From Sulfurimonas autotrophica DSM 16294 (GTDB lineage Bacteria; Campylobacterota; Campylobacteria; Campylobacterales; Sulfurimonadaceae), in assembly GCF_000147355.1 (NCBI RefSeq), contig NC_014506.1, positions 1,984,001 through 2,048,000 of the forward strand: a stretch of 64,000 bases of DNA, given 5' to 3'. Shown piece by piece: positions 18,293 to 27,541 of the stretch. The notes below the pieces were generated by a model. That model did not search any database. It saw only the letters and a list, made by a program, of their open reading frames with translations, and was not told the origin of the DNA. Position numbers and translations under genes: made by a program. Each line of letters begins with the position of its first letter. Within the stretch, counting starts at the first letter, position 1.

Positions 18293-18520
18293 ATGAATTC
18301 AATAAAACATATACAAAACGCCCTCAAAGAGCTTGATGACGAGGTACAAAAAATTTTACTTGACTGGAGTATTCCTCTTAATGAAAAAGACAATCTAATG
18401 CTGCCTATTTTACAGCAAAAAAGAGTGCTTGACCAGACATTAGAAGATTTGACCTACCTCAAAGAGCATCCTCCGACACCGAATCAGCCCTGCGGTATTT
18501 CTAAATATAGAAATGATTAA
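18293..18520 (+). CDS. Small hypothetical protein
   Basis: 75 aa, mostly helical, acidic and Leu-rich ([19 protein letters not shown], then [20 protein letters not shown]), ending in a Pro-rich tail. There is no signal peptide and no motif I recognise. It has its own promoter, divergent from rpmI, and is followed by the SRP RNA promoter. It may be a small coiled-coil protein. Confidence 0.65.
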
Positions 18521-18531
18521 GGAAATTTTGC

Positions 18532-18537
18532 TATAAT
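18532..18537 (+). promoter_or_regulatory. -10 box of the SRP RNA gene
   Basis: TTGCTATAATTTC lies seven bases upstream of the predicted 5' end of the SRP RNA and overlaps no gene. Confidence 0.6.
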
Positions 18538-18543
18538 TTCACC

Positions 18544-18648
18544 GCTTCTCTTTAGACCTGTGCAATGGTATACTGAGGTAATGTGTCAGGGTAGGAATAC
18601 AGCAGCACGCCTTAGTATGCTATGTGCCGCAGCAATCTGGAGAGGGGC
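18544..18648 (+). ncRNA. ffs: Signal recognition particle RNA (small bacterial 4.5S type)
   Basis: This roughly 105-base RNA folds as one long hairpin. The outer stem is CTTCTC near 18544 with GAGAGG near 18640. An inner stem joins GGTATACTGAGG with CCTTAGTATGC. The apical domain carries the conserved SRP elements GTCAGG, GGAA tetraloop and AGCAGC (about 18581-18606), which bind Ffh. It guides membrane protein targeting together with Ffh and FtsY. It has its own -10 box and sits between small genes, as is common. The ends are approximate. Confidence 0.9.
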
Positions 18649-18701: not shown

Positions 18702-19241
18702 ATGCTTTACATAGTAACCGCTCTCAAACCAGAAGCTCAAGCCTTTGTTGACAAATACAGACTTAAAAAAAATAAACTGCAAAACTACACACTTTTTCAA
18801 AATAAAAATATCAAGCTCATCATAAGCGGCATCGGCGTCAGTAATGCCAGACTTGCAACTCAGACACTCATAAACAATTTTGACATCACAGATGATGATA
18901 TTTACCTCAACGTAGGAATTTGCGCAGCACCAAAAAGTCACAGTATAGGCGAACTTATAGAGGTTGGCGAAATTATATATAAAGATACCTCTTATTTATT
19001 AGGTGCAGATAAACAGACCCTTACATGTAAAGATGAAGAAGTTGCAAGTGAACAAGCAACTATAGTAGATATGGAAAGTTACGGGTTTTATGACGCTGTT
19101 TTCCATAACCCTGCCATTAAAAAATTTCATATTTTAAAAGTAGTAAGCGACCATTTTGAACCAAAAAAGGTAACAAAAGAAGGAACCAAATCACTTTTAT
19201 TTAATGTTATAGATGATATAAATAGTATAACATTTGATTAG
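18702..19241 (+). CDS. Nucleoside phosphorylase/nucleosidase family protein
   Basis: 179 aa, about three quarters the length of MTA/SAH nucleosidase. The N-terminus ILYIVTALKPEAQAF and ISGIGVSNAR, and VDMESYGFYDA near the C-terminus, match the PNP/UDP phosphorylase superfamily; the ME pair and following Asp in a VSDHFEP segment would contact the ribose and base. The short form and position before the cell-wall recycling genes (11-base gap) leave the substrate open. TTACATGTAA occurs at 19021. Confidence 0.78.
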   Translation: MLYIVTALKPEAQAFVDKYRLKKNKLQNYTLFQNKNIKLIISGIGVSNARLATQTLINNFDITDDDIYLNVGICAAPKSHSIGELIEVGEIIYKDTSYLLGADKQTLTCKDEEVASEQATIVDMESYGFYDAVFHNPAIKKFHILKVVSDHFEPKKVTKEGTKSLLFNVIDDINSITFD

Positions 19242-19252
19242 GATTACTTATA

Positions 19253-20935
19253 ATGAAAATATTTTTGCTTTTATTAACCCTTTTTACAGCACTCATTGCC
19301 GCGCAGCCTACAGACACACAACTCAAAAAAATGATAGGCCGCATGCTGATTGTTGGTTTTGATGAAAGTTATATAGAGCCACAATCACAAATAGTGAGTG
19401 ACATTCAGCAGTATGATTTGGGCGGTGTCATTCTGTTTGACAAATTCTATACAGACAGACAAAGAGCAAAAAATATACTCTCTCCCTATCAGTTAAAAAA
19501 GCTGACACAACATTTAAAATATTTTTCAAAAAAACCGCTTTTTATTGCTGTGGATCAAGAGGGAGGAAAGGTAGCCAGACTCAAGCCCAAATACGGATTT
19601 ATAAAAATTCCCTCTGCCTATGCCGTCTCATGCATGCCTTTACAAAAAGCTGAAAAAATTTACGACACACAGGCACAAATACTTGAAGACGCAGGTATAA
19701 ATATGAACTTTGCTCCCGTTGTGGATTTGAGCATTAACCCAAATAACAAAGTCATAGTAGCTCTTGAGCGTTCATATGGCAGTGACCCTAAAGAGGTCGT
19801 AAAATACGCACAGACAATGATAGATGTACAAACAAAGCACAATGTCATCTCTGTTTTAAAACATTTTCCCGGACACGGCTCATCTGTCGGTGACTCACAT
19901 AAAGGCTTTGTGGACATTACACATACCTGGCAGGAAAAAGAGTTAGAGCCGTACAAGCTGTTCATAAATACAGGGAAAGCTGACACTATTATGACAGCAC
20001 ATGTTTTCAACGCCCACTTGGATGACAAATATCCTGCAACACTCTCTTACAAAACAAACACAAAACTTTTACGCAATACCCTGCATTTTAAAGGTGTAAT
20101 CATCAGTGATGATATGCAGATGAAAGCCATCTCGGCAAATTATTCGCTCAAAGATGCCGTGACCTTAGCCATCAACAGCGGTGTAGACATCTTGCTTTTT
20201 GGCAATCAGCTCGCACACAACTCTACAAAAGAGATAGTAGAAACCATTTTCAAACAGGTCAAAAACAAAAAAATTCCACTAGAGCGTATAAAAGAGTCCA
20301 ATGCACGTATAGCAAACTTACATGTAAAGAATGCCATCATCCAAAAACCCATAGTATTTGGTGACAAACGCAAAGAGATGACACGTGCATACATCCAAAA
20401 GCATTACGGCTTACATGTAAAGAACATTACTATAAAACCCAAAGTAATCGTACTGCACTGGACTGCAGTTATGGATTTAACTAACAGTTTTAACAGACTC
20501 TACCCCCAAAAACTGCTTACCGACAGAAAAGACATAGCAAAAGCCTCTGCTTTAAATGTTTCGGCACATTATTTGGTTGACCGTGACGGAACGATTTACC
20601 AACTGATGCCCGATAATGTTATGGCACGTCATGTCATCGGCTTAAATTATTCAAGTATCGGCATTGAAAATGTCGGCGGAGAAGCAAACAAAAAAGAAGA
20701 TTTAACACCTGCTCAGGTACGCTCAAACATAGCGCTTGTAAAGTATCTCAAGCAAAAATACCCAAATATCAGCTACCTCATCGGTCATTATGAATACACA
20801 AAGATGCAAAACAATCCGCTTTGGCTCGAACGCGATGCCGGGTATAGAACAAAAAAAGCAGACCCGGGTGAAGAGTTTATGCAAAAAGTCAGACATGGGG
20901 TAAAAAACTTACACCTCAAGGGTGCGAATGAGTAA
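19253..20935 (+). CDS. Exported NagZ-AmpD fusion (GH3 hexosaminidase + amidase)
   Basis: 560 aa. A signal peptide (KIFLLLLTLFTALIAA) is followed by a GH3 beta-N-acetylhexosaminidase domain with KHFPGHG (203-209) and the SHKGF and DDMQM loops of NagZ. From about residue 395 comes an Amidase_2/AmpD domain (VIVLHWTAV, AHYLVDRDG, GHYEY, KADPGEEF; His, His and Asp as zinc ligands). Together it would cut GlcNAc from muropeptides and remove the peptide from MurNAc. In most Gram-negatives these are two separate cytoplasmic enzymes; here they are fused and appear periplasmic. Two TTACATGTAA palindromes (20318, 20411) lie in the linker region. Confidence 0.92.
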   Translation: MKIFLLLLTLFTALIAAQPTDTQLKKMIGRMLIVGFDESYIEPQSQIVSDIQQYDLGGVILFDKFYTDRQRAKNILSPYQLKKLTQHLKYFSKKPLFIAVDQEGGKVARLKPKYGFIKIPSAYAVSCMPLQKAEKIYDTQAQILEDAGINMNFAPVVDLSINPNNKVIVALERSYGSDPKEVVKYAQTMIDVQTKHNVISVLKHFPGHGSSVGDSHKGFVDITHTWQEKELEPYKLFINTGKADTIMTAHVFNAHLDDKYPATLSYKTNTKLLRNTLHFKGVIISDDMQMKAISANYSLKDAVTLAINSGVDILLFGNQLAHNSTKEIVETIFKQVKNKKIPLERIKESNARIANLHVKNAIIQKPIVFGDKRKEMTRAYIQKHYGLHVKNITIKPKVIVLHWTAVMDLTNSFNRLYPQKLLTDRKDIAKASALNVSAHYLVDRDGTIYQLMPDNVMARHVIGLNYSSIGIENVGGEANKKEDLTPAQVRSNIALVKYLKQKYPNISYLIGHYEYTKMQNNPLWLERDAGYRTKKADPGEEFMQKVRHGVKNLHLKGANE

Positions 20936-22397
20936 CGGTTTTTCCTCTTTGGACTGGTTCGTTTTTGCGGCCTATTTTTTGGTACTTGCCATTAGTTCTT
21001 ACCTCTTTTCTCAATTTAAAGTCAAATCTGCAAGGGATTATTTTGTCAGTTCCAACACTATGCCTATGCTCGCTGTTGCCGTCTCCATCGTTGCAACCTC
21101 TCAGTCAGCCGCTACGTTTTTGGGTGTTCCAGAATTTACTTATGTGCATGATTTTACTTTTATTGGTTTTTACATATCTGCTCTTTTGGCCGTTGTCTTT
21201 ATATCCGTAGTGTTTGTGCCGAAATTTTACAAATACAAGGTCGTAACGGTTTACGAACTTTTACAAACACGCTATGGTGAGAGTGCAAAAAAGCAGGCAG
21301 GGTTAATGTTCTTGCTCGGACGAATCATGGCAAGCGGGGCAAGACTCTACATCGGCGCACTTGCTGTGAGCATGATACTTTTTTTAGACATCAGCTTTAT
21401 GCATATGCTTGTCTCCATCATACTTTTAATACTGGGAGCTTTGGCCTATACTTATTTTGGGGGCATAAAGTCCATCATCTTCAGTGACGTTATTCAGGCA
21501 GCCACATATGTCGGTGCTGGAATTTTAGTCTTTTGGTATTTGTATGTTTCGCTTCATAATGTTGATATTTTACAAGTTCTACAAACCCACAATAAGTTAC
21601 ATGCAATAGACACTTCTCTTGATGGAAAGTTCAGTATTTTGGCACTTTTTAGCGGCTGGCTGCTTTTAAATATAGCGGCTTTCGGACTGGATCAGGATAT
21701 GACACAGCGCGTACTCAGCTGCAAAAACAAAAATGATGCCGCAAAGTCACTCATACTTTCCATAATTTTTACCATTCCCATCGTTTTACTTTTTTTAGGC
21801 ATCGGGGCGCTTCTATTTGTACATTACCAAACAAGTCAGGTCACACAGAACTTTCAAGGTGAAAGCATTACTATTTTTATGTACTACATTTTAAATGAGA
21901 TGCCCTCAGGGCTCAGAGGTCTTGTCACAGTCGGAGCCATCGCCGCTGCACTCTCAAGTACAAACTCTGTTTTAGGTGCTATGGCTTCTGTCACGGTGGA
22001 AGATTTGTACAGACCATGGAAAATGCAAAAAAATCCGAATACTGATGAGGCACACTTTCTAAAAGCCTCACGAAATGCCGTACTCTTGTTCGCCGTCATT
22101 CTCGCGCTCATGGCCATCATAAGTTACTTTTGGCAAAGAGAGAGCGAGCTTTCACTTGTAAGTTTTGCGCTGGGTGTCATGACCTTTGCTTATACCGGAC
22201 TTCTAGGTGTATTTTTCTCGGCGGTTTTTACATCACGCGGGAGTACTAAAGCAGTTCCTTTTGCCTTAATCGGCGGATTTATAAGCGTTTTAGCTCTACA
22301 GCCCTACACTTTCGGTATTCATATAGGTTTTGCATGGCAGATGGTTTTAGGAACGGCTGTTTCTTTTTTGATTATGCAGAGAGACAAAGGAGATTAG
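20928..22397 (+). CDS. SSS-family sodium/solute symporter
   Basis: About 489 aa with 12-14 hydrophobic helices. Family signs are the N-terminal WFVFAAYFLVLAISSYLFS, SARDYFVSSNTMP, ATSQSAATFLGVP and the central ALSSTNSVLGAMASVTVEDLY-type segment. The ATG at 20928 overlaps the end of nagZ-ampD by eight bases; an upstream GTG at 20922 is possible. Its place between nagZ-ampD and anmK suggests that it imports a product of wall breakdown, such as anhydroMurNAc or a muropeptide sugar, in place of AmpG. The substrate is inferred only from context. Confidence 0.88.
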   Translation: MSNGFSSLDWFVFAAYFLVLAISSYLFSQFKVKSARDYFVSSNTMPMLAVAVSIVATSQSAATFLGVPEFTYVHDFTFIGFYISALLAVVFISVVFVPKFYKYKVVTVYELLQTRYGESAKKQAGLMFLLGRIMASGARLYIGALAVSMILFLDISFMHMLVSIILLILGALAYTYFGGIKSIIFSDVIQAATYVGAGILVFWYLYVSLHNVDILQVLQTHNKLHAIDTSLDGKFSILALFSGWLLLNIAAFGLDQDMTQRVLSCKNKNDAAKSLILSIIFTIPIVLLFLGIGALLFVHYQTSQVTQNFQGESITIFMYYILNEMPSGLRGLVTVGAIAAALSSTNSVLGAMASVTVEDLYRPWKMQKNPNTDEAHFLKASRNAVLLFAVILALMAIISYFWQRESELSLVSFALGVMTFAYTGLLGVFFSAVFTSRGSTKAVPFALIGGFISVLALQPYTFGIHIGFAWQMVLGTAVSFLIMQRDKGD

Positions 22398-22754
22398 ATG
22401 GCAAAAAAAAGAAAAAATCAAGAAGATAAAATAGAAAAAGAACAAAGACTCCAAGAGCATAAAGAGAAAAACAGATGGTTTTGGTGGGAAGATGATGTAT
22501 TGGTTTTTAACATATTGGGAAAACCCTCCGCGAAAATCACGAAAATCGGCAAACCTTTTGGAAATCAGCTTAAAATTTCTGTAGCGTGCGCCCCGGTAAA
22601 CGGTAAAGCAACCGATCATCTTGTCAAATTTTTAGCCCATGAGTTTGATGTAAAAATAAAAGATATTGAAGTAGTATTTGGCAGAATGAATGTTAACAAA
22701 CAACTTAGAGTTACAAGACCAAACAAGCTTCCATCTGTTTTTAAAGCAAAATAA
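22398..22754 (+). CDS. DUF167 (YggU-family) protein
   Basis: 118 aa. After a charged, Lys-rich N-terminal tail comes the DUF167 core: ISVACAPVNGKATDHLVKFL and VVFGRMNVNKQLRV. The family is widespread with no established function. The stop overlaps the anmK start by one base (TAATG), so it is translated with the recycling genes. Confidence 0.88.
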   Translation: MAKKRKNQEDKIEKEQRLQEHKEKNRWFWWEDDVLVFNILGKPSAKITKIGKPFGNQLKISVACAPVNGKATDHLVKFLAHEFDVKIKDIEVVFGRMNVNKQLRVTRPNKLPSVFKAK

Positions 22755-23842
22755 TGAAAGAATTGTATATAGGAGTAATGAGCGGGACGAGTCTTGACGG
22801 GATAGACATCGCTTTGTGTGAAATCGGCGACACGACATGCAGACTCCTTAGTGCTCATGAGTATCCGTTTCCACAAGTATTAAAAGAAGAGATTTTAGCA
22901 CTTATATCCTCAAGCGTGTCACTCAAACAAATCGGTGAATGTGACATGAAACTTGGAATGCTTTTTACGGAGTGTATCAATGATTTTATACAAAAAAACG
23001 CTTTACATGTAAAGGATATAACAGCCATTGGTCTGCACGGACAAACACTCTGGCATGCACCGGATTCTGCTTACCCTTTTTCCATGCAGCTTGGTAACGC
23101 CAACATTGTTGCAGCCAAAACAGGCATATCGACTGTGGCTGATTTTCGAGGTATGGACATCGCTCACGGCGGTCAAGGTGCGCCTTTTGCACCAGCATTT
23201 CACAAATTTTTGTTTGCAGACACGAAGCAAAAAATGGCACTTGTAAACATCGGCGGTATGGCAAACATCTCTTTGCTTTTTGGAAAACTTCAAGGCTGGG
23301 ATGTCGGCTGTGGCAATGTTTTAATGGATTTATGGATACAAAAAACACAAGCTAAAGAGTATGATAAAGAGGGAGCTTTTGCAAAGAGCGCGCAAACAGA
23401 TAAAAGCCTGCTTGCAAAAATGCTTATGGATGTCTACTTTCAAAAGCAGCCGCCAAAAAGCACAGGCAGAGAGTATTTCAATGAAGCATGGCTCACACAA
23501 AAACTGCAAGGTTTTGAGCATTTAAGCGATGCACAGGTGCAAAGAACACTTTTAGAACTTACCGCACAAACTATTGCAAATGATGTCAACAACACGCACT
23601 CATCACAGCTCATAGTCTGCGGCGGCGGAGCAAAAAACAGCTTTTTAATGCAGCGGCTCGCTAAGCTCTGTCATGCCGAAGTAAGTCCAAGTGATACACT
23701 AGGCATTAACAGTGATTTTTTGGAGGCGATGGCTTTTGCCTGGTTTGCAAAAAAACGCATACACAAAGAACCTCTAAAACTCCGCAACGTCACGGGAGCA
23801 AAAAAAGATTCTATCGCAGGAGCCGTATATGCAGCAGATTAA
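22754..23842 (+). CDS. anmK: Anhydro-N-acetylmuramic acid kinase
   Basis: 362 aa, full length. The ATP-binding N-terminus GVMSGTSLDGIDIALCEI, GLHGQTLWH, DFRGMDIAHGGQGAPFAP and VCGGGAKNSFLM are diagnostic. AnmK opens the 1,6-anhydro ring and makes MurNAc-6-phosphate in the cytoplasm. It overlaps amgK by 14 bases. TTACATGTAA is at 23003 (Leu-His-Val-Lys). Confidence 0.96.
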   Translation: MKELYIGVMSGTSLDGIDIALCEIGDTTCRLLSAHEYPFPQVLKEEILALISSSVSLKQIGECDMKLGMLFTECINDFIQKNALHVKDITAIGLHGQTLWHAPDSAYPFSMQLGNANIVAAKTGISTVADFRGMDIAHGGQGAPFAPAFHKFLFADTKQKMALVNIGGMANISLLFGKLQGWDVGCGNVLMDLWIQKTQAKEYDKEGAFAKSAQTDKSLLAKMLMDVYFQKQPPKSTGREYFNEAWLTQKLQGFEHLSDAQVQRTLLELTAQTIANDVNNTHSSQLIVCGGGAKNSFLMQRLAKLCHAEVSPSDTLGINSDFLEAMAFAWFAKKRIHKEPLKLRNVTGAKKDSIAGAVYAAD

Positions 23843-24776
23843 AGCGTGGCTCAAACAAACGCCTTTTAAAGATTATGCCATAAGCATTGCCTCCGCCGAT
23901 GCAAGTTTTAGAAAATATTACAGACTCAAAAAAGAGAACAAAAGTGTTATACTCATGGATGCCTCTTTGGAAAAAAGTTCTTTAGCCCCTTTTGTTGACA
24001 TAACACAGAGACTGTTACATGTAAACGTCAAAGCACCTAATATTCTTACACGGAACCTTTCACTCGGGTATTTGATTTTACAAGATTTTGGAAATACAAA
24101 TCTGCTTGATATTTTAAATCAAAAAAATTTTAAAGAGCTGTATGAAAAAGCCATAGATGAAATACTCAAAATGCAAAAAGCAGATGCAAAAAACCTGCCT
24201 CTGTATGACAAAAAATTTCTCCATGCAGAGATGGATTTGATGCAGGAGTGGTTTTTGGAGAAAAAACTAGGCTTACATGTAACCAAAGAAGCAAAAGAGC
24301 TTCTCTCTTCCACGCTTGAGGCAATATCTGAAGTTGTTTTATCACAGCCGCAAAATATTTTTGTACATCGTGATTTTCACTCTCGTAATATTATGCTCAC
24401 ACCGCAAAACAAACTGGGTATTATTGATTATCAAGATGCTATGAGCGGGGCACTGACCTATGATTTGGTTTCACTGTTAAAAGACTGCTATATTGCTTTT
24501 GAGAGAGAGGATATAGAAGAATTGGTACTTTTGTTTGCTCAAAAAAAGGGCTTACATGTAAAAGATGAAGAGTTTTTAAAGTGGTTTGATTTTATGGGGC
24601 TACAGCGGCATATAAAGGTGCTTGGTATTTTTTCACGTCTGTATCTGCGAGACGGCAAGGAAGGGTACTTAAAAGATATTCCTCTCACATTGCGTTATGT
24701 TATTGAGACTGCTTCGCGGTATAATGAGACGAAAGAGTTTGCGGAGTTTTTACGACAACTCAAGCCCAAGTTTTAA
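23829..24776 (+). CDS. amgK: N-acetylmuramate/GlcNAc 1-kinase AmgK
   Basis: 315 aa aminoglycoside phosphotransferase-fold kinase. VHRDFHSRNIML (catalytic Asp, Asn) and IIDYQDAMSG (metal Asp) are intact. Placement between anmK and murU identifies it as AmgK, which phosphorylates MurNAc at C1 for the MurU route to UDP-MurNAc, known from Pseudomonas. It contains three TTACATGTAA palindromes (24015, 24273, 24552), the densest cluster in the window. The family is certain; the role follows from context. Confidence 0.9.
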   Translation: MQQIKAWLKQTPFKDYAISIASADASFRKYYRLKKENKSVILMDASLEKSSLAPFVDITQRLLHVNVKAPNILTRNLSLGYLILQDFGNTNLLDILNQKNFKELYEKAIDEILKMQKADAKNLPLYDKKFLHAEMDLMQEWFLEKKLGLHVTKEAKELLSSTLEAISEVVLSQPQNIFVHRDFHSRNIMLTPQNKLGIIDYQDAMSGALTYDLVSLLKDCYIAFEREDIEELVLLFAQKKGLHVKDEEFLKWFDFMGLQRHIKVLGIFSRLYLRDGKEGYLKDIPLTLRYVIETASRYNETKEFAEFLRQLKPKF

Positions 24777-24788
24777 CCTGGGCTTGAG
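24759..24788 (+). terminator. Strong hairpin at the end of amgK
   Basis: CTCAAGCCCA pairs with TGGGCTTGAG (10 bp, 10-base loop), spanning the amgK stop codon, followed by TTGCTTG. It lacks a long T-run and the recycling genes continue 56 bases later, so it may be an attenuator or mRNA-stabilising stem. It uses the same CAAGCCC stem word as the rplT hairpin. Confidence 0.6.
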
Positions 24789-24843
24789 TTGCTTGAAAAC
24801 CTAAAAGGCAAGCTTGCATTAATATATTTAAGGACAGAACACT

Positions 24844-25500
24844 ATGAATGCTATGATACTTGCAGCGGGACGGGGTGAGCGTATGCGTCCTCTTACCGAT
24901 TCACTGCCAAAACCCTTGTTACCTGTAAAGGGTAAAACACTTATAGAGTGGCATATAGAAAAACTTGCAAAGAACGGTTTTGAAGAGATTATTATCAATA
25001 TAGCCCATTTGGGTTACAAAATAGAGGAGTATGTAAAAGACGGCTCACAATGGGGTGTGAAAATTTACTACTCTGATGAACAAGGTACAGGAGCATTAGA
25101 GAGTGCGGGAGGCATCAAAAAAGCTCTGCCACTTTTGGGCGACGAGCCTTTTTTGGTTGTTAACGGCGATATATTCTGCGATTATGAATTTAATCCCGAC
25201 TTTGAGCTTCAAGGAAAGCTTGCCCATTTGATTTTGGTACCGAATCCTCCTCATAACCCAAAGGGTGATTTTGGGCTGAAAAACGGACATGTTACAAATA
25301 AAGATGATGACATGTACACCTTTTCGGGCATAGGCTATTATCATCCGAATTTTTTTAAAGATGTTGCGTTACAAAAAAGCTCACTCACCCCGATATTACG
25401 AGATTTTATAGACAAAAAGTTCGTCAGTGGCGAAGTGTTTAATAAAATGTGGCACGATATAGGCACACCAAAAAGGCTTCAAGAGATAAATGAAAACTAA
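24844..25500 (+). CDS. murU: N-acetylmuramate-1-phosphate uridylyltransferase MurU
   Basis: 218 aa sugar-phosphate nucleotidyltransferase. The N-terminus MILAAGRGERMRPLTDSLPK is the nucleotide-binding loop, PLLPVKGKTLIEW follows, and VVNGDIFCDY carries the metal Asp. Small size without a LbH domain and the neighbour amgK mark it as MurU, which makes UDP-MurNAc from MurNAc-1-P and UTP and so bypasses MurA/MurB. It overlaps the transglycosylase gene by 11 bases. Confidence 0.9.
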   Translation: MNAMILAAGRGERMRPLTDSLPKPLLPVKGKTLIEWHIEKLAKNGFEEIIINIAHLGYKIEEYVKDGSQWGVKIYYSDEQGTGALESAGGIKKALPLLGDEPFLVVNGDIFCDYEFNPDFELQGKLAHLILVPNPPHNPKGDFGLKNGHVTNKDDDMYTFSGIGYYHPNFFKDVALQKSSLTPILRDFIDKKFVSGEVFNKMWHDIGTPKRLQEINEN

Positions 25501-26470
25501 ACTACTCATAACGTTACTGCTCTTTTCTACATCACTTTTTGCAAAATATGACAACTGCACCTTTCAAAACAAACATTATGAAGATATATGCAAAAAAGTC
25601 GTAAATCACGGTGTCAGTTATGAGTATGCCAATAAATTTCTGCTCTCTTACTTTAAAACACAAAAGTATGATGAAATCAGCTGGAAATACCTACAGCCTT
25701 CAAAAATAAAATACCATAAAGAGAAAGAGAAACAGGCGAACAATGTACTTGTAAGCTATGTTCCAAAAATGGTAAAAAATTTGAAACAATATAAAGATGT
25801 ATATGATTACGCTGAAAAGAAATACGGTGTTAACCGTGAAATAATTGCCGCAATTTTGCTCAAAGAGACAAAACTCGGAAAAATAAAGCCTACACATGAT
25901 GCTTTCATTGTCTTTAATACTATTGTAATGAGAACAAAACCTAATTCACGTAGAGAAAAATGGCTCTTAAAAATGGGAAAAACAAATATGGCGTCTATCA
26001 TTGAGCACTGCTACAAACAAGGTGTGAAACCTGAGCAATGCAATTTACCAAGTTCTTATGCCGGAGCTATCGGCATCCCGCAGTTTATGCCAAACAGTTT
26101 TATTTATACAGATTCATACAAAGGGAAAGTCGCAGATTTAACAAAAATGGAAGACGCTATTCTCTCTGCTGCAAGGTTCTTACATGTAAAGGCAAAGTTT
26201 GACACACTCATAAAGTGGGAAAAAATGCCTAATATCCCTCTTGTAGAGGAACAATGGTATGCTTATGCCTACAAATACGAAAATGCCTCTTTTTGCTACA
26301 AAAAGAGTACAAAAGGCAAAAAACGCTACAAATGCTTTACAAAAGGCAAAAAAAATCTGCAGTACATGAAAAAATATGTAGAAAAAATAATGCGTTATAA
26401 TAATTCCTCAAATTATGCCGTCGGCGTCATTCGTCTTGCTGATGACGCGCATAAACTCCTCAAAAAGTAA
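25490..26470 (+). CDS. mltB: Lytic murein transglycosylase (MltB family)
   Basis: 326 aa exported protein with signal peptide KLLITLLLFSTSLFA. The SLT_2/MltB domain has LLKETKLGK with the catalytic Glu, FIVFNTIV and AIGIPQFMPNSF. It cleaves glycan strands to give 1,6-anhydromuropeptides, the input of the recycling pathway encoded just upstream. It overlaps murU. There is a Lys-rich insert near residue 275. TTACATGTAA is at 26180. Confidence 0.92.
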   Translation: MKTKLLITLLLFSTSLFAKYDNCTFQNKHYEDICKKVVNHGVSYEYANKFLLSYFKTQKYDEISWKYLQPSKIKYHKEKEKQANNVLVSYVPKMVKNLKQYKDVYDYAEKKYGVNREIIAAILLKETKLGKIKPTHDAFIVFNTIVMRTKPNSRREKWLLKMGKTNMASIIEHCYKQGVKPEQCNLPSSYAGAIGIPQFMPNSFIYTDSYKGKVADLTKMEDAILSAARFLHVKAKFDTLIKWEKMPNIPLVEEQWYAYAYKYENASFCYKKSTKGKKRYKCFTKGKKNLQYMKKYVEKIMRYNNSSNYAVGVIRLADDAHKLLKK

Positions 26471-26487: not shown

Positions 26488-26973
26488 TCAGGCTTTGGAA
26501 CTTATAAGTGCAAGTTCCAAACTTCCGCTAACATAATTGGCAAAAAAAGTAAGTGTTTCTAAATCTTCTTCATCAAAGTCTGTTTCTTTATTTAAAAGTT
26601 GTATAACGCCCATAACTTCTCGCTTAGAGTTAAATATAGGTACGGTTATCATATTTTGAGTTATATAACCGCTTTTTTTGTCAATATTTGGCAAAAATCT
26701 TTCATCTTCATAAGGATTATTTACCACCTGAGCTGCTTTACTTGTATAGGTTGCGCCGACTACACCTGCATCAAGAGCAACAACTATTTTACCTATACCG
26801 TCGCTGAGTGTCGTCCAAAGCATTTCATCATCATTATCTACTATAAATATAGAGCATCTTTGTGCCCCGACAAGTTCTTTTGCCTCATCTGCAATCAATT
26901 CAATTGTATTATTCATGTCATCCATAGACATCAGTTTTTTACCAAATTCGGCAATTTTATTGAATTTTTTCAT
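26488..26973 (-). CDS. GAF-domain protein
   Basis: 161 aa, almost entirely one GAF domain (about 20-155): QRCSIFIVDNDDEMLWTTLSDG, VVGATYTSKAA, NMITVPIFNSKREVMGVIQLLNK. Free-standing GAF proteins bind small ligands or act with kinases; no output domain is present. It is a paralogue of the gene just upstream, arising from tandem duplication. Confidence 0.85.
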   Translation of the reverse strand: MKKFNKIAEFGKKLMSMDDMNNTIELIADEAKELVGAQRCSIFIVDNDDEMLWTTLSDGIGKIVVALDAGVVGATYTSKAAQVVNNPYEDERFLPNIDKKSGYITQNMITVPIFNSKREVMGVIQLLNKETDFDEEDLETLTFFANYVSGSLELALISSKA

Positions 26974-26974
26974 C

Positions 26975-27484
26975 CTAGTCTACTCGCTTGTCTTGGTCTA
27001 TATAAGTATGCAATAGTTCTAAAAATCCACTCACATAATGTGCAAAAAATATCATAAATCTTACATCTTCTTCATCAAATCCCTCTTCTTTGTTGAGTAG
27101 TTCCAGCACGCCGATAATCTCTCTTTTTGAGCTAAATATAGGCGCTGTAATAATATTTTTGGTTATATAGCCTGTTGCAGAGTCAATTTCAGGTAAAAAT
27201 TCAGGGTGTTTGTAGGCATCATTTGTCATCACGGGTTTTTTTGCTTTGAGCGTGTAACCGACTAAGCCTTTGTCTGAAGGAAGCGTAATTTTATCGACGC
27301 CGTCAGCAATGGTTGTCCACATTTCATTTGCATTCTCATCATAAATAAATATAGAACACCTCTCTGCACCTATCACATCTTTGACATACTTCGATATCAG
27401 AGGCAGACCGTCTTCAATGGATCTTTTCGTTAATAATTCTCTTGCAAACTCTGCAAGTTTTAATTTTTTATTTTTATATTGCAT
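26975..27484 (-). CDS. GAF-domain protein (tandem paralogue)
   Basis: 169 aa GAF protein: ERCSIFIYDENANEMWTTIADG, GLVGYTLKAKKP, NIITAPIFSSKREIIGVLELLNK. I chose the ATG at 27484 (MQYKNKKLKLAEFA) because a longer reading from 27517 would start inside the -10 box TATAAT at 27517-27522. This start leaves a leader of about 26 bases with AAAAGG. It is followed after one base by its paralogue. Confidence 0.83.
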   Translation of the reverse strand: MQYKNKKLKLAEFARELLTKRSIEDGLPLISKYVKDVIGAERCSIFIYDENANEMWTTIADGVDKITLPSDKGLVGYTLKAKKPVMTNDAYKHPEFLPEIDSATGYITKNIITAPIFSSKREIIGVLELLNKEEGFDEEDVRFMIFFAHYVSGFLELLHTYIDQDKRVD

Positions 27485-27541
27485 AACTAAAACCTTTTTA
27501 TGACTTATTACAGACAATTATAGTGTAAAATTTTAACAAAC

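Follow-up and report, generated by a model that had tools for sequence, protein, structure and literature searches.

A probable Sulfurimonas operon for peptidoglycan recycling with a predicted periplasmic NagZ-AmpD fusion and a candidate anhydroMurNAc symporter

We analysed a window of 64,000 nucleotides from the chromosome of Sulfurimonas autotrophica DSM 16294 (all coordinates count from the first letter of this window), in which seven + strand genes at 19253-26470 are grouped around enzymes of peptidoglycan recycling. We consider it likely that the cluster is an AmpG-independent operon that recycles only the sugar part of peptidoglycan. Muropeptides would be stripped in the periplasm by a fusion of NagZ and AmpD, and the 1,6-anhydro-N-acetylmuramic acid (anhydroMurNAc) set free would be imported in an Na+-driven manner by a transporter of the sodium/solute symporter (SSS) family. 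The genome is a complete chromosome in a single contig of 2.15 Mb. The nearest relatives of the locus are found in Sulfurimonas, the best of them 83% identical across residues 16-560 of the fusion.

Gene content and predicted export of the stripping enzymes

All seven genes belong to clear Pfam families, with best matches above the gathering score throughout. The first encodes the fusion, predicted to be exported (19253-20935, +, 560 aa), in which PF00933 (214.4 bits) and PF01510 (79 bits) are matched within one protein. It is followed by the SSS-family sodium symporter, our proposed importer of anhydroMurNAc (20928-22397, +; PF00474, 94.6 bits, cut-off 22.8); its open reading frame (ORF) spans 20922-22397, and the ATG at 20928 is the likelier start. 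Beyond a YggU/DUF167 gene, described below, lie the genes for the anhydro-N-acetylmuramic acid kinase AnmK (22754-23842, +; PF03702, 437.4 bits; NF007139, 460.7 bits, cut-off 367), an AmgK-like 1-kinase for N-acetylmuramic acid (MurNAc) or N-acetylglucosamine (GlcNAc) (23829-24776, +; PF01636, 78.3 bits; best NCBIfam match NF045759, 258.5 bits, cut-off 550), the MurNAc-alpha-1-phosphate uridylyltransferase MurU (24844-25500, +; PF00483, 93.3 bits; NF045761, 298.5 bits, cut-off 250) and an MltB-like lytic transglycosylase with a signal-like sequence (25490-26470, +; PF13406, 113.8 bits; TIGR02282, 72.8 bits, cut-off 281.4). The NCBIfam equivalog cut-offs are passed by AnmK and MurU and missed by NagZ, AmpD, AmgK and MltB, and the latter four names therefore rest on family and motif. 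The operon genes overlap or abut, with a 67-nt gap between AmgK and MurU as the sole exception, an arrangement that suggests a single transcript.

The proposed pathway would begin in the periplasm, where lytic transglycosylases (the MltB-like protein and others) would free GlcNAc-anhydroMurNAc-peptides. There the exported fusion would cut off GlcNAc with its NagZ part and the stem peptide with its AmpD part, and the SSS protein would carry the resulting free anhydroMurNAc inward together with Na+. In the cytoplasm, AnmK would form MurNAc-6-phosphate, a phosphatase (the MupP step) would convert this to MurNAc, and AmgK and MurU would lead on to the uridine diphosphate-activated sugar, UDP-MurNAc. 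The stem peptide would have no recognised route of reuse, in line with the lack of Mpl and OppC matches given below.

Both catalytic parts of the fusion retain their signature residues in all 17 aligned fusions, a set that includes the one in the window and leaves out L037 (unread letters). The NagZ domain, a GH3 beta-N-acetylglucosaminidase (19328-20320, +; PF00933, residues 26-356), has invariant KHFPGHGSS..DSH and SDD motifs and scores 174.6 bits against NCBIfam NF003740, under the cut-off of 207. The AmpD-like Amidase_2 domain (20435-20869, +; PF01510, residues 395-539) has invariant H402, H512, K535 and D537, which we take to be the catalytic and zinc-ligand residues of the amidase. With 31.1 bits against the NCBIfam AmpD model NF008758 (cut-off 143), this part is best called an AmpD-like amidase, not AmpD proper.

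Ahead of the NagZ domain lies a putative signal-peptide-like N-terminus (about residues 1-17; 19253-19303, +), formed by a hydrophobic stretch behind the start codon. We applied one signal rule alike to six proteins, requiring a start codon, then at most 15 residues on a ten-residue stretch with a mean hydropathy of at least 2, all ahead of the domain core; identical N-termini were counted once and unplaceable cores skipped. A signal-like N-terminus is present in 57/57 distinct Campylobacterota NagZ or fusion sequences, which cover 23 of the 25 genomes with the SSS gene (the NagZ of G218 and G250 being left out). The same is true of 20 of 21 distinct separate AmpD proteins, with 16/16 in SSS-bearing genomes, and of all 18 distinct relatives of the MltB-like protein. 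The lone failing AmpD (L153, in genome G290, which has no SSS gene) has a weaker stretch of 1.65. Among the cytoplasmic controls no protein passed (AnmK 0/35, AmgK 0/33 and MurU 0/30; 0/98 together); these controls matter because the rule picks whichever start codon favours a signal. Outside the phylum, the NagZ relatives of L059, L066, L081, L102 and L111, which are not among the 57, have no hydrophobic N-terminus.

From these N-termini we predict that the fusion is exported to the periplasm. Since the separate enzymes look exported too, the periplasmic placing of NagZ and AmpD is independent of the fusion. In family f4, the separate AmpD proteins of L138 and L139 carry lipobox-like motifs (LSGC and LTAC), which suggests that they are lipoproteins anchored in a membrane.

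The predicted model of the fusion (mean pLDDT, the predicted local distance difference test score, 79.0; amidase part weaker) matches the folds of 6k5j (Z 42.7, 2.0 Å over 322 residues), YbbD (3bmx, Z 41.0) and LpqI (6gfv, Z 36.8), in a list that is filled by the GH3 domain, contains no amidase and is silent on the AmpD part. Single-domain NagZ structures from Salmonella, Vibrio, Neisseria, Burkholderia and Pseudomonas, which are cytosolic enzymes, align from model residue 23-29, with the exception of 5g2m, which aligns from model residue 19 with its residue -1. The first 20-25 or so residues of the fusion are therefore an extension relative to these enzymes. An earlier note on this DNA had proposed that NagZ and AmpD are fused behind a signal peptide, and this is borne out by the two domains in one protein and its signal-like N-terminus; a cytoplasmic location, looked for by sequence, was not found. 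Its description of an operon covering every step from glycan cleavage by MltB to UDP-MurNAc agrees with the gene content and goes too far in one respect, MupP being absent from the operon.

Distribution in Campylobacterota and the absence of AmpG

We searched 298 Campylobacterota genomes for AnmK (PF03702), MurU (NF045761, E up to 1e-40) and the SSS protein (E up to 1e-30). AnmK occurs in 26 genomes and MurU in exactly those 26. The SSS gene is present in 25 of them and elsewhere only in G050, as a relative with 28% identity that was not counted; G287 has such a 28% relative and a fragment in addition to its own SSS gene. This NagZ and this AmpD accompany the SSS gene in 25/25 genomes, and this AmpD is found without it in five. 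The association of the genes is above chance (Fisher value for AnmK with SSS 1.6e-35, relatedness ignored).

These counts bear on the idea that NagZ-AmpD is a periplasmic enzyme of wall remodelling or muropeptide clearance, uncoupled from recycling, with AnmK, AmgK and MurU as chance neighbours. Signal-bearing NagZ relatives do occur without SSS and AnmK in other Campylobacterota, in Legionella and in Chlorobi. However, every SSS-bearing genome among the 298 also has this NagZ and this AmpD, and AnmK and MurU lack them only in G283. Moreover, fused and separate gene orders alike join a hydrolase to SSS-AnmK, and we regard a chance neighbourhood as barely credible.

The order of genes is (nucleosidase)-NagZ(-AmpD)-SSS-AnmK-AmgK-MurU-MltB in family f1 and AmpD-SSS-AnmK-AmgK-MurU in family f4, where NagZ is encoded elsewhere; in each family, some relatives carry additional inserted genes. 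In both orders the SSS gene stands between the stripping enzyme or enzymes and AnmK, which supports the proposed pathway. In G233 the SSS gene is on a different contig from AmpD and AnmK, all three being present. G253, of the same genus as the window, keeps nucleosidase, NagZ and MltB together and has no SSS, AnmK, MurU or this AmpD, as if these had been lost as a block. A scan of named genomes gave 27 Campylobacterota loci (L032-L058; L073, which ends inside NagZ, was dropped). In 26 of the 27 an SSS gene accompanies NagZ or the fusion (the exception is L056), and 21 include AnmK within the locus; it is absent from L035, L047 and L055-L058, of which L035, L047 and L057 end at a contig edge shortly afterwards. 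SSS and AnmK are both missing from all 52 loci that come from other phyla. One of these, in the Legionellaceae (UBA6148; L103:9917-15726), encodes a signal-bearing NagZ relative and, some 3 kb away, has AmgK- and MurU-like genes, with no SSS and no AnmK in the locus.

The full-length fusion itself is found in nine of the 298 genomes, seven from the same genus (S. autotrophica included) and two from a second genus in that family; NagZ and AmpD are separate genes in the remaining 17 genomes of the phylum set that have the two proteins. In the named-genome scan it appears as one frame of more than 500 aa in 17 loci, 16 from Sulfurimonas and one from an Epsilonproteobacteria bacterium. Identity of the window's AmpD part is 61-74% with the separate AmpD proteins of family f4 and 54-56% with those of its own genus. 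Trees of the AmpD part, the NagZ part and the SSS protein fit both a single fusion event in family f1 followed by losses and two events; in the SSS tree the sequences of family f4 fall on one side (93/89).

In textbook accounts, disaccharide muropeptides enter Gram-negative wall recycling through AmpG-type import. In the complete genome of S. autotrophica the AmpG profile TIGR00901, which matched 5 of 14 controls including E. coli, yields no candidate. Across the phylum set an AmpG-like match is seen in 33/298 genomes, none above the profile cut-off, and in 0/26 genomes with AnmK and MurU, against 2.9 expected (p 0.04, relatedness ignored). The disaccharide portion is reported to be the minimal requirement of E. 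coli AmpG (PMC7670621). An exported NagZ would destroy this substrate, and the absence of AmpG therefore fits.

In the S. autotrophica genome OppC_N has no match and Mpl no match near its cut-off (TIGR01081, best 59.2 bits, cut-off 388.7), and the fusion is the sole GH3 and the sole Amidase_2 match. There is thus no importer of the kinds searched (AmpG and OppC_N; ABC permeases, of the ATP-binding cassette class, and the major facilitator superfamily were not searched as whole classes) and no second set of these enzyme families that could handle muropeptides in the cytoplasm. This makes it very unlikely, in our judgement, that another importer, such as an ABC transporter of the Opp or Yej type, takes in muropeptides and that the SSS gene is a passenger. 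The genome does encode a single SBP_bac_5 binding protein (L175:6406-8563), whose gene overlaps that of a HAD phosphatase, and Agrobacterium uses YejBEF-YepA, as far as the source excerpts go. However, besides the missing OppC_N match, no ABC permease is evident by eye in the ORFs beside SBP_bac_5 (the upstream gene is DUF945-like, below cut-off), and a second GH3 or Amidase_2 protein that could process imported muropeptides was not found.

Two further genes near or within the operon are of less certain relation to it. The first gene of the operon may instead be an MTA/SAH-nucleosidase-like gene (18702-19241, +, 179 aa), which ends 11 nt ahead of the fusion and is kept in 19 of the 27 loci. 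Its product has no Pfam match up to E = 1 and is under every NCBIfam cut-off, the best match scoring 35.8 bits (cut-off 161). The YggU/DUF167 gene (22398-22754, +; PF02594, 63.6 bits) lies between SSS and AnmK and is probably a passenger; among the fetched loci, the window's own aside, only L048 and L117 have it. A gene for the small signal recognition particle (SRP) RNA (18549-18646, +; RF00169, 60.4 bits, gathering score 40) precedes the nucleosidase-like gene, and a promoter-like site at 18508-18537 probably serves this RNA. Just past the operon, on the opposite strand, are two adjoining genes with one GAF domain apiece (26488-27517, -).

The symporter and the phosphatase step

The closest solved sequence to the SSS protein is that of SiaT (5nv9, E 1.7e-38, 26% identity), and its predicted model (mean pLDDT 81.7) superimposes on 5nva with Z 41.0 and 2.6 Å over 456 residues. 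Sialic acid and anhydroMurNAc are both N-acetylated sugar acids, and that the nearest solved relative has such a cargo supports the proposed role. SiaT is an Na+/sialic acid symporter, and we took its sodium and cargo sites from passages of PMC5931594. Both Na2 serines are kept in 25/25 SSS sequences; in the Na3 site Thr57, Asp182 and Ser346 are kept in 25/25, and Ser345 is replaced by Asn in 24/25. In the cargo site the carboxylate-binding Ser60 and Thr63, as well as Gly81 and Asn247, are kept in all 25. The assignment of the SSS protein as a candidate importer of anhydroMurNAc, already made in the earlier note, is backed by the place of its gene and by its co-occurrence with AnmK and MurU, from which the cargo itself is inferred. 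The absence of AmpG that the note reported holds for the complete genome and for the 26 genomes with AnmK and MurU. In the comparison of operons across Campylobacterota that the note suggested, SSS and NagZ or the fusion stand together in 26 of 27 loci, and its suggestion of a topology unlike the textbook pathway gains support from enzymes predicted to be exported and an SSS transporter without AmpG.

Several observations weigh against our interpretation. Arg135, which forms the carboxylate salt bridge in SiaT, is replaced by Ala in the same column in 25/25 sequences, and Gln82 and Gln250 are likewise unconserved in register. All 25 sequences have two more arginines, at A2 positions 132 and 139, which lie three and four residues off the Arg135 column. 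The exclusion of AmpG is weak on its own, because no genome of the phylum exceeds the profile cut-off. The co-occurrence counts are uncorrected for relatedness, and the positive genomes belong to two families of one order. G283 (family f4; L178, G283:C140) has AnmK and MurU with no match for NagZ, AmpD or SSS, and the 678 bases ahead of its AnmK on the same strand encode no SSS protein. In L058, NagZ-SSS is followed by no AnmK over the next 8.5 kb. The amidase may also act on the intact wall.

The MupP step is a further difficulty. The Pseudomonas route requires MupP, according to passages of PMC5371407. The operon contains none, and none could be assigned in the S. autotrophica genome among 10 HAD_2 places, four proteins of which were scored against NCBIfam. 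Two HAD proteins, whose genes lie at chromosome positions 1004673-1005302 and 1928516-1929046, match the MupP model NF009696; the scores of the pair are 63.9 and 97.6 bits only (cut-off 359). The better of them scores higher, at 117.3 bits, as a phosphoglycolate phosphatase, and its orthologue is present in genomes of the same family with and without the pathway (some match in 40/43), for which reason we did not accept it as MupP. Inspection by eye of the operon and of the inserts that break it up in 14 relatives, covering the first 60 residues of each ORF of at least 110 aa, showed no HAD phosphatase; six insert proteins from these relatives were scanned with Pfam. Two of the six, encoded in family f4 by genes inserted ahead of AnmK and behind SSS (L142:6547-7869 and L144:7688-9007), are metallophosphoesterases of the calcineurin-like type with a signal sequence (47 bits, cut-off 21.5). 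We provisionally set these aside as MupP candidates, as they are exported and were seen only in those two loci.

The loss of Arg135 in register is also one of three points in favour of a different cargo, namely GlcNAc, or both sugars, imported by the SSS protein. NagZ would set GlcNAc free in the periplasm as well, this sugar could be salvaged through an AmgK-type kinase, and NCBIfam names AmgK a MurNAc/GlcNAc kinase. However, the SSS gene tracks the MurNAc-named AnmK and MurU in 25/26 genomes and stands ahead of AnmK in the gene orders of both families, and without it the substrate of AnmK has no recognised entry. We therefore think GlcNAc import unlikely. Alternatively, the protein could import free MurNAc, as MurT of Tannerella does, in a system that mainly scavenges wall debris from the environment, with AnmK in a side stream. 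The exported hydrolases could indeed work on outside material, and one passage of PMC5790795 assigns MurT, a MurNAc transporter, to the sodium symporter superfamily, while another passage places it with the major facilitators. Against this, the f1 operon includes a lytic transglycosylase-like gene, whose product would create anhydro ends, and AnmK is present in 25/25 SSS genomes. Import of MurNAc and of anhydroMurNAc are compatible, so that the difference is mainly one of emphasis; as an account of the system, scavenging seems improbable to us.

On balance we favour the view that the muramic sugar alone is recycled, by a periplasmic fused NagZ-amidase and the first dedicated 1,6-anhydroMurNAc Na+ symporter, which would replace AmpG throughout the Campylobacterota with AnmK, AmgK and MurU.

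Relation to known recycling systems

The system shares AnmK, an AmgK-like kinase and MurU, leading to UDP-MurNAc, with recycling of the Pseudomonas type (AmpG, NagZ, AmpD, AnmK, MupP, AmgK and MurU). It differs in that NagZ and AmpD are fused and predicted to be exported, in that an SSS protein stands in place of AmpG, and in that no MupP is assigned and no Mpl found. Of the two features of AmpG-dependent Gram-negative recycling, neither AmpG nor a cytoplasmic NagZ and AmpD is seen here, the location being predicted from sequence.

The Bacillus subtilis pathway has a separate amidase, AmiE, and imports sugars through a phosphotransferase system (PTS). Its NagZ, YbbD, and mycobacterial LpqI act outside the inner membrane, as predicted for the fusion, and have close folds, whereas the present system belongs to a Gram-negative cell and adds a fused Amidase_2 domain, an SSS transporter and the AnmK-AmgK-MurU route. 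Extracellular NagZ in some Gram-positives, and LpqI as a lipoprotein, are described in passages of PMC6572805. Tannerella forsythia MurTKQ similarly includes a transporter of a free wall sugar, but this sugar is MurNAc, not anhydroMurNAc, and its route runs through MurK and MurQ; the passages of PMC7670621 on this organism report AmpG as present and predict no AnmK. With SiaT the SSS protein shares the fold, the Na2 serines, Ser60, Thr63 and Asn247, and differs at Arg135, Gln82 and Gln250. Agrobacterium, in the excerpts describing it, also has recycling enzymes without AmpG and uses another importer, YejBEF-YepA, but this is an ABC transporter and its cargo is muropeptides.

Excerpts of a review call AmpG more sporadic in Epsilonproteobacteria (PMC11382707). 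Among the open-licence papers that our searches listed, none described NagZ fused to AmpD or an SSS protein importing anhydroMurNAc, and a review of SSS transporters in prokaryotes, published in 2021, never mentions MurNAc, muramic or peptidoglycan. The novelty lies in a Gram-negative cell that would join full periplasmic stripping by a fused enzyme to a candidate symporter for the bare anhydro-sugar, both linked with AnmK-AmgK-MurU in two families of a single phylum.

The near-perfect co-occurrence makes this reading directly testable. If it is true, it names a candidate family of anhydroMurNAc importers and explains how bacteria without AmpG make use of AnmK, AmgK and MurU. The compartments of the textbook pathway would be swapped, with hydrolysis first and import of one small sugar afterwards. 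Anhydro-muropeptides would then stay out of the cytoplasm, and we predict that these bacteria would lack the muropeptide signal that normally arises inside the cell.

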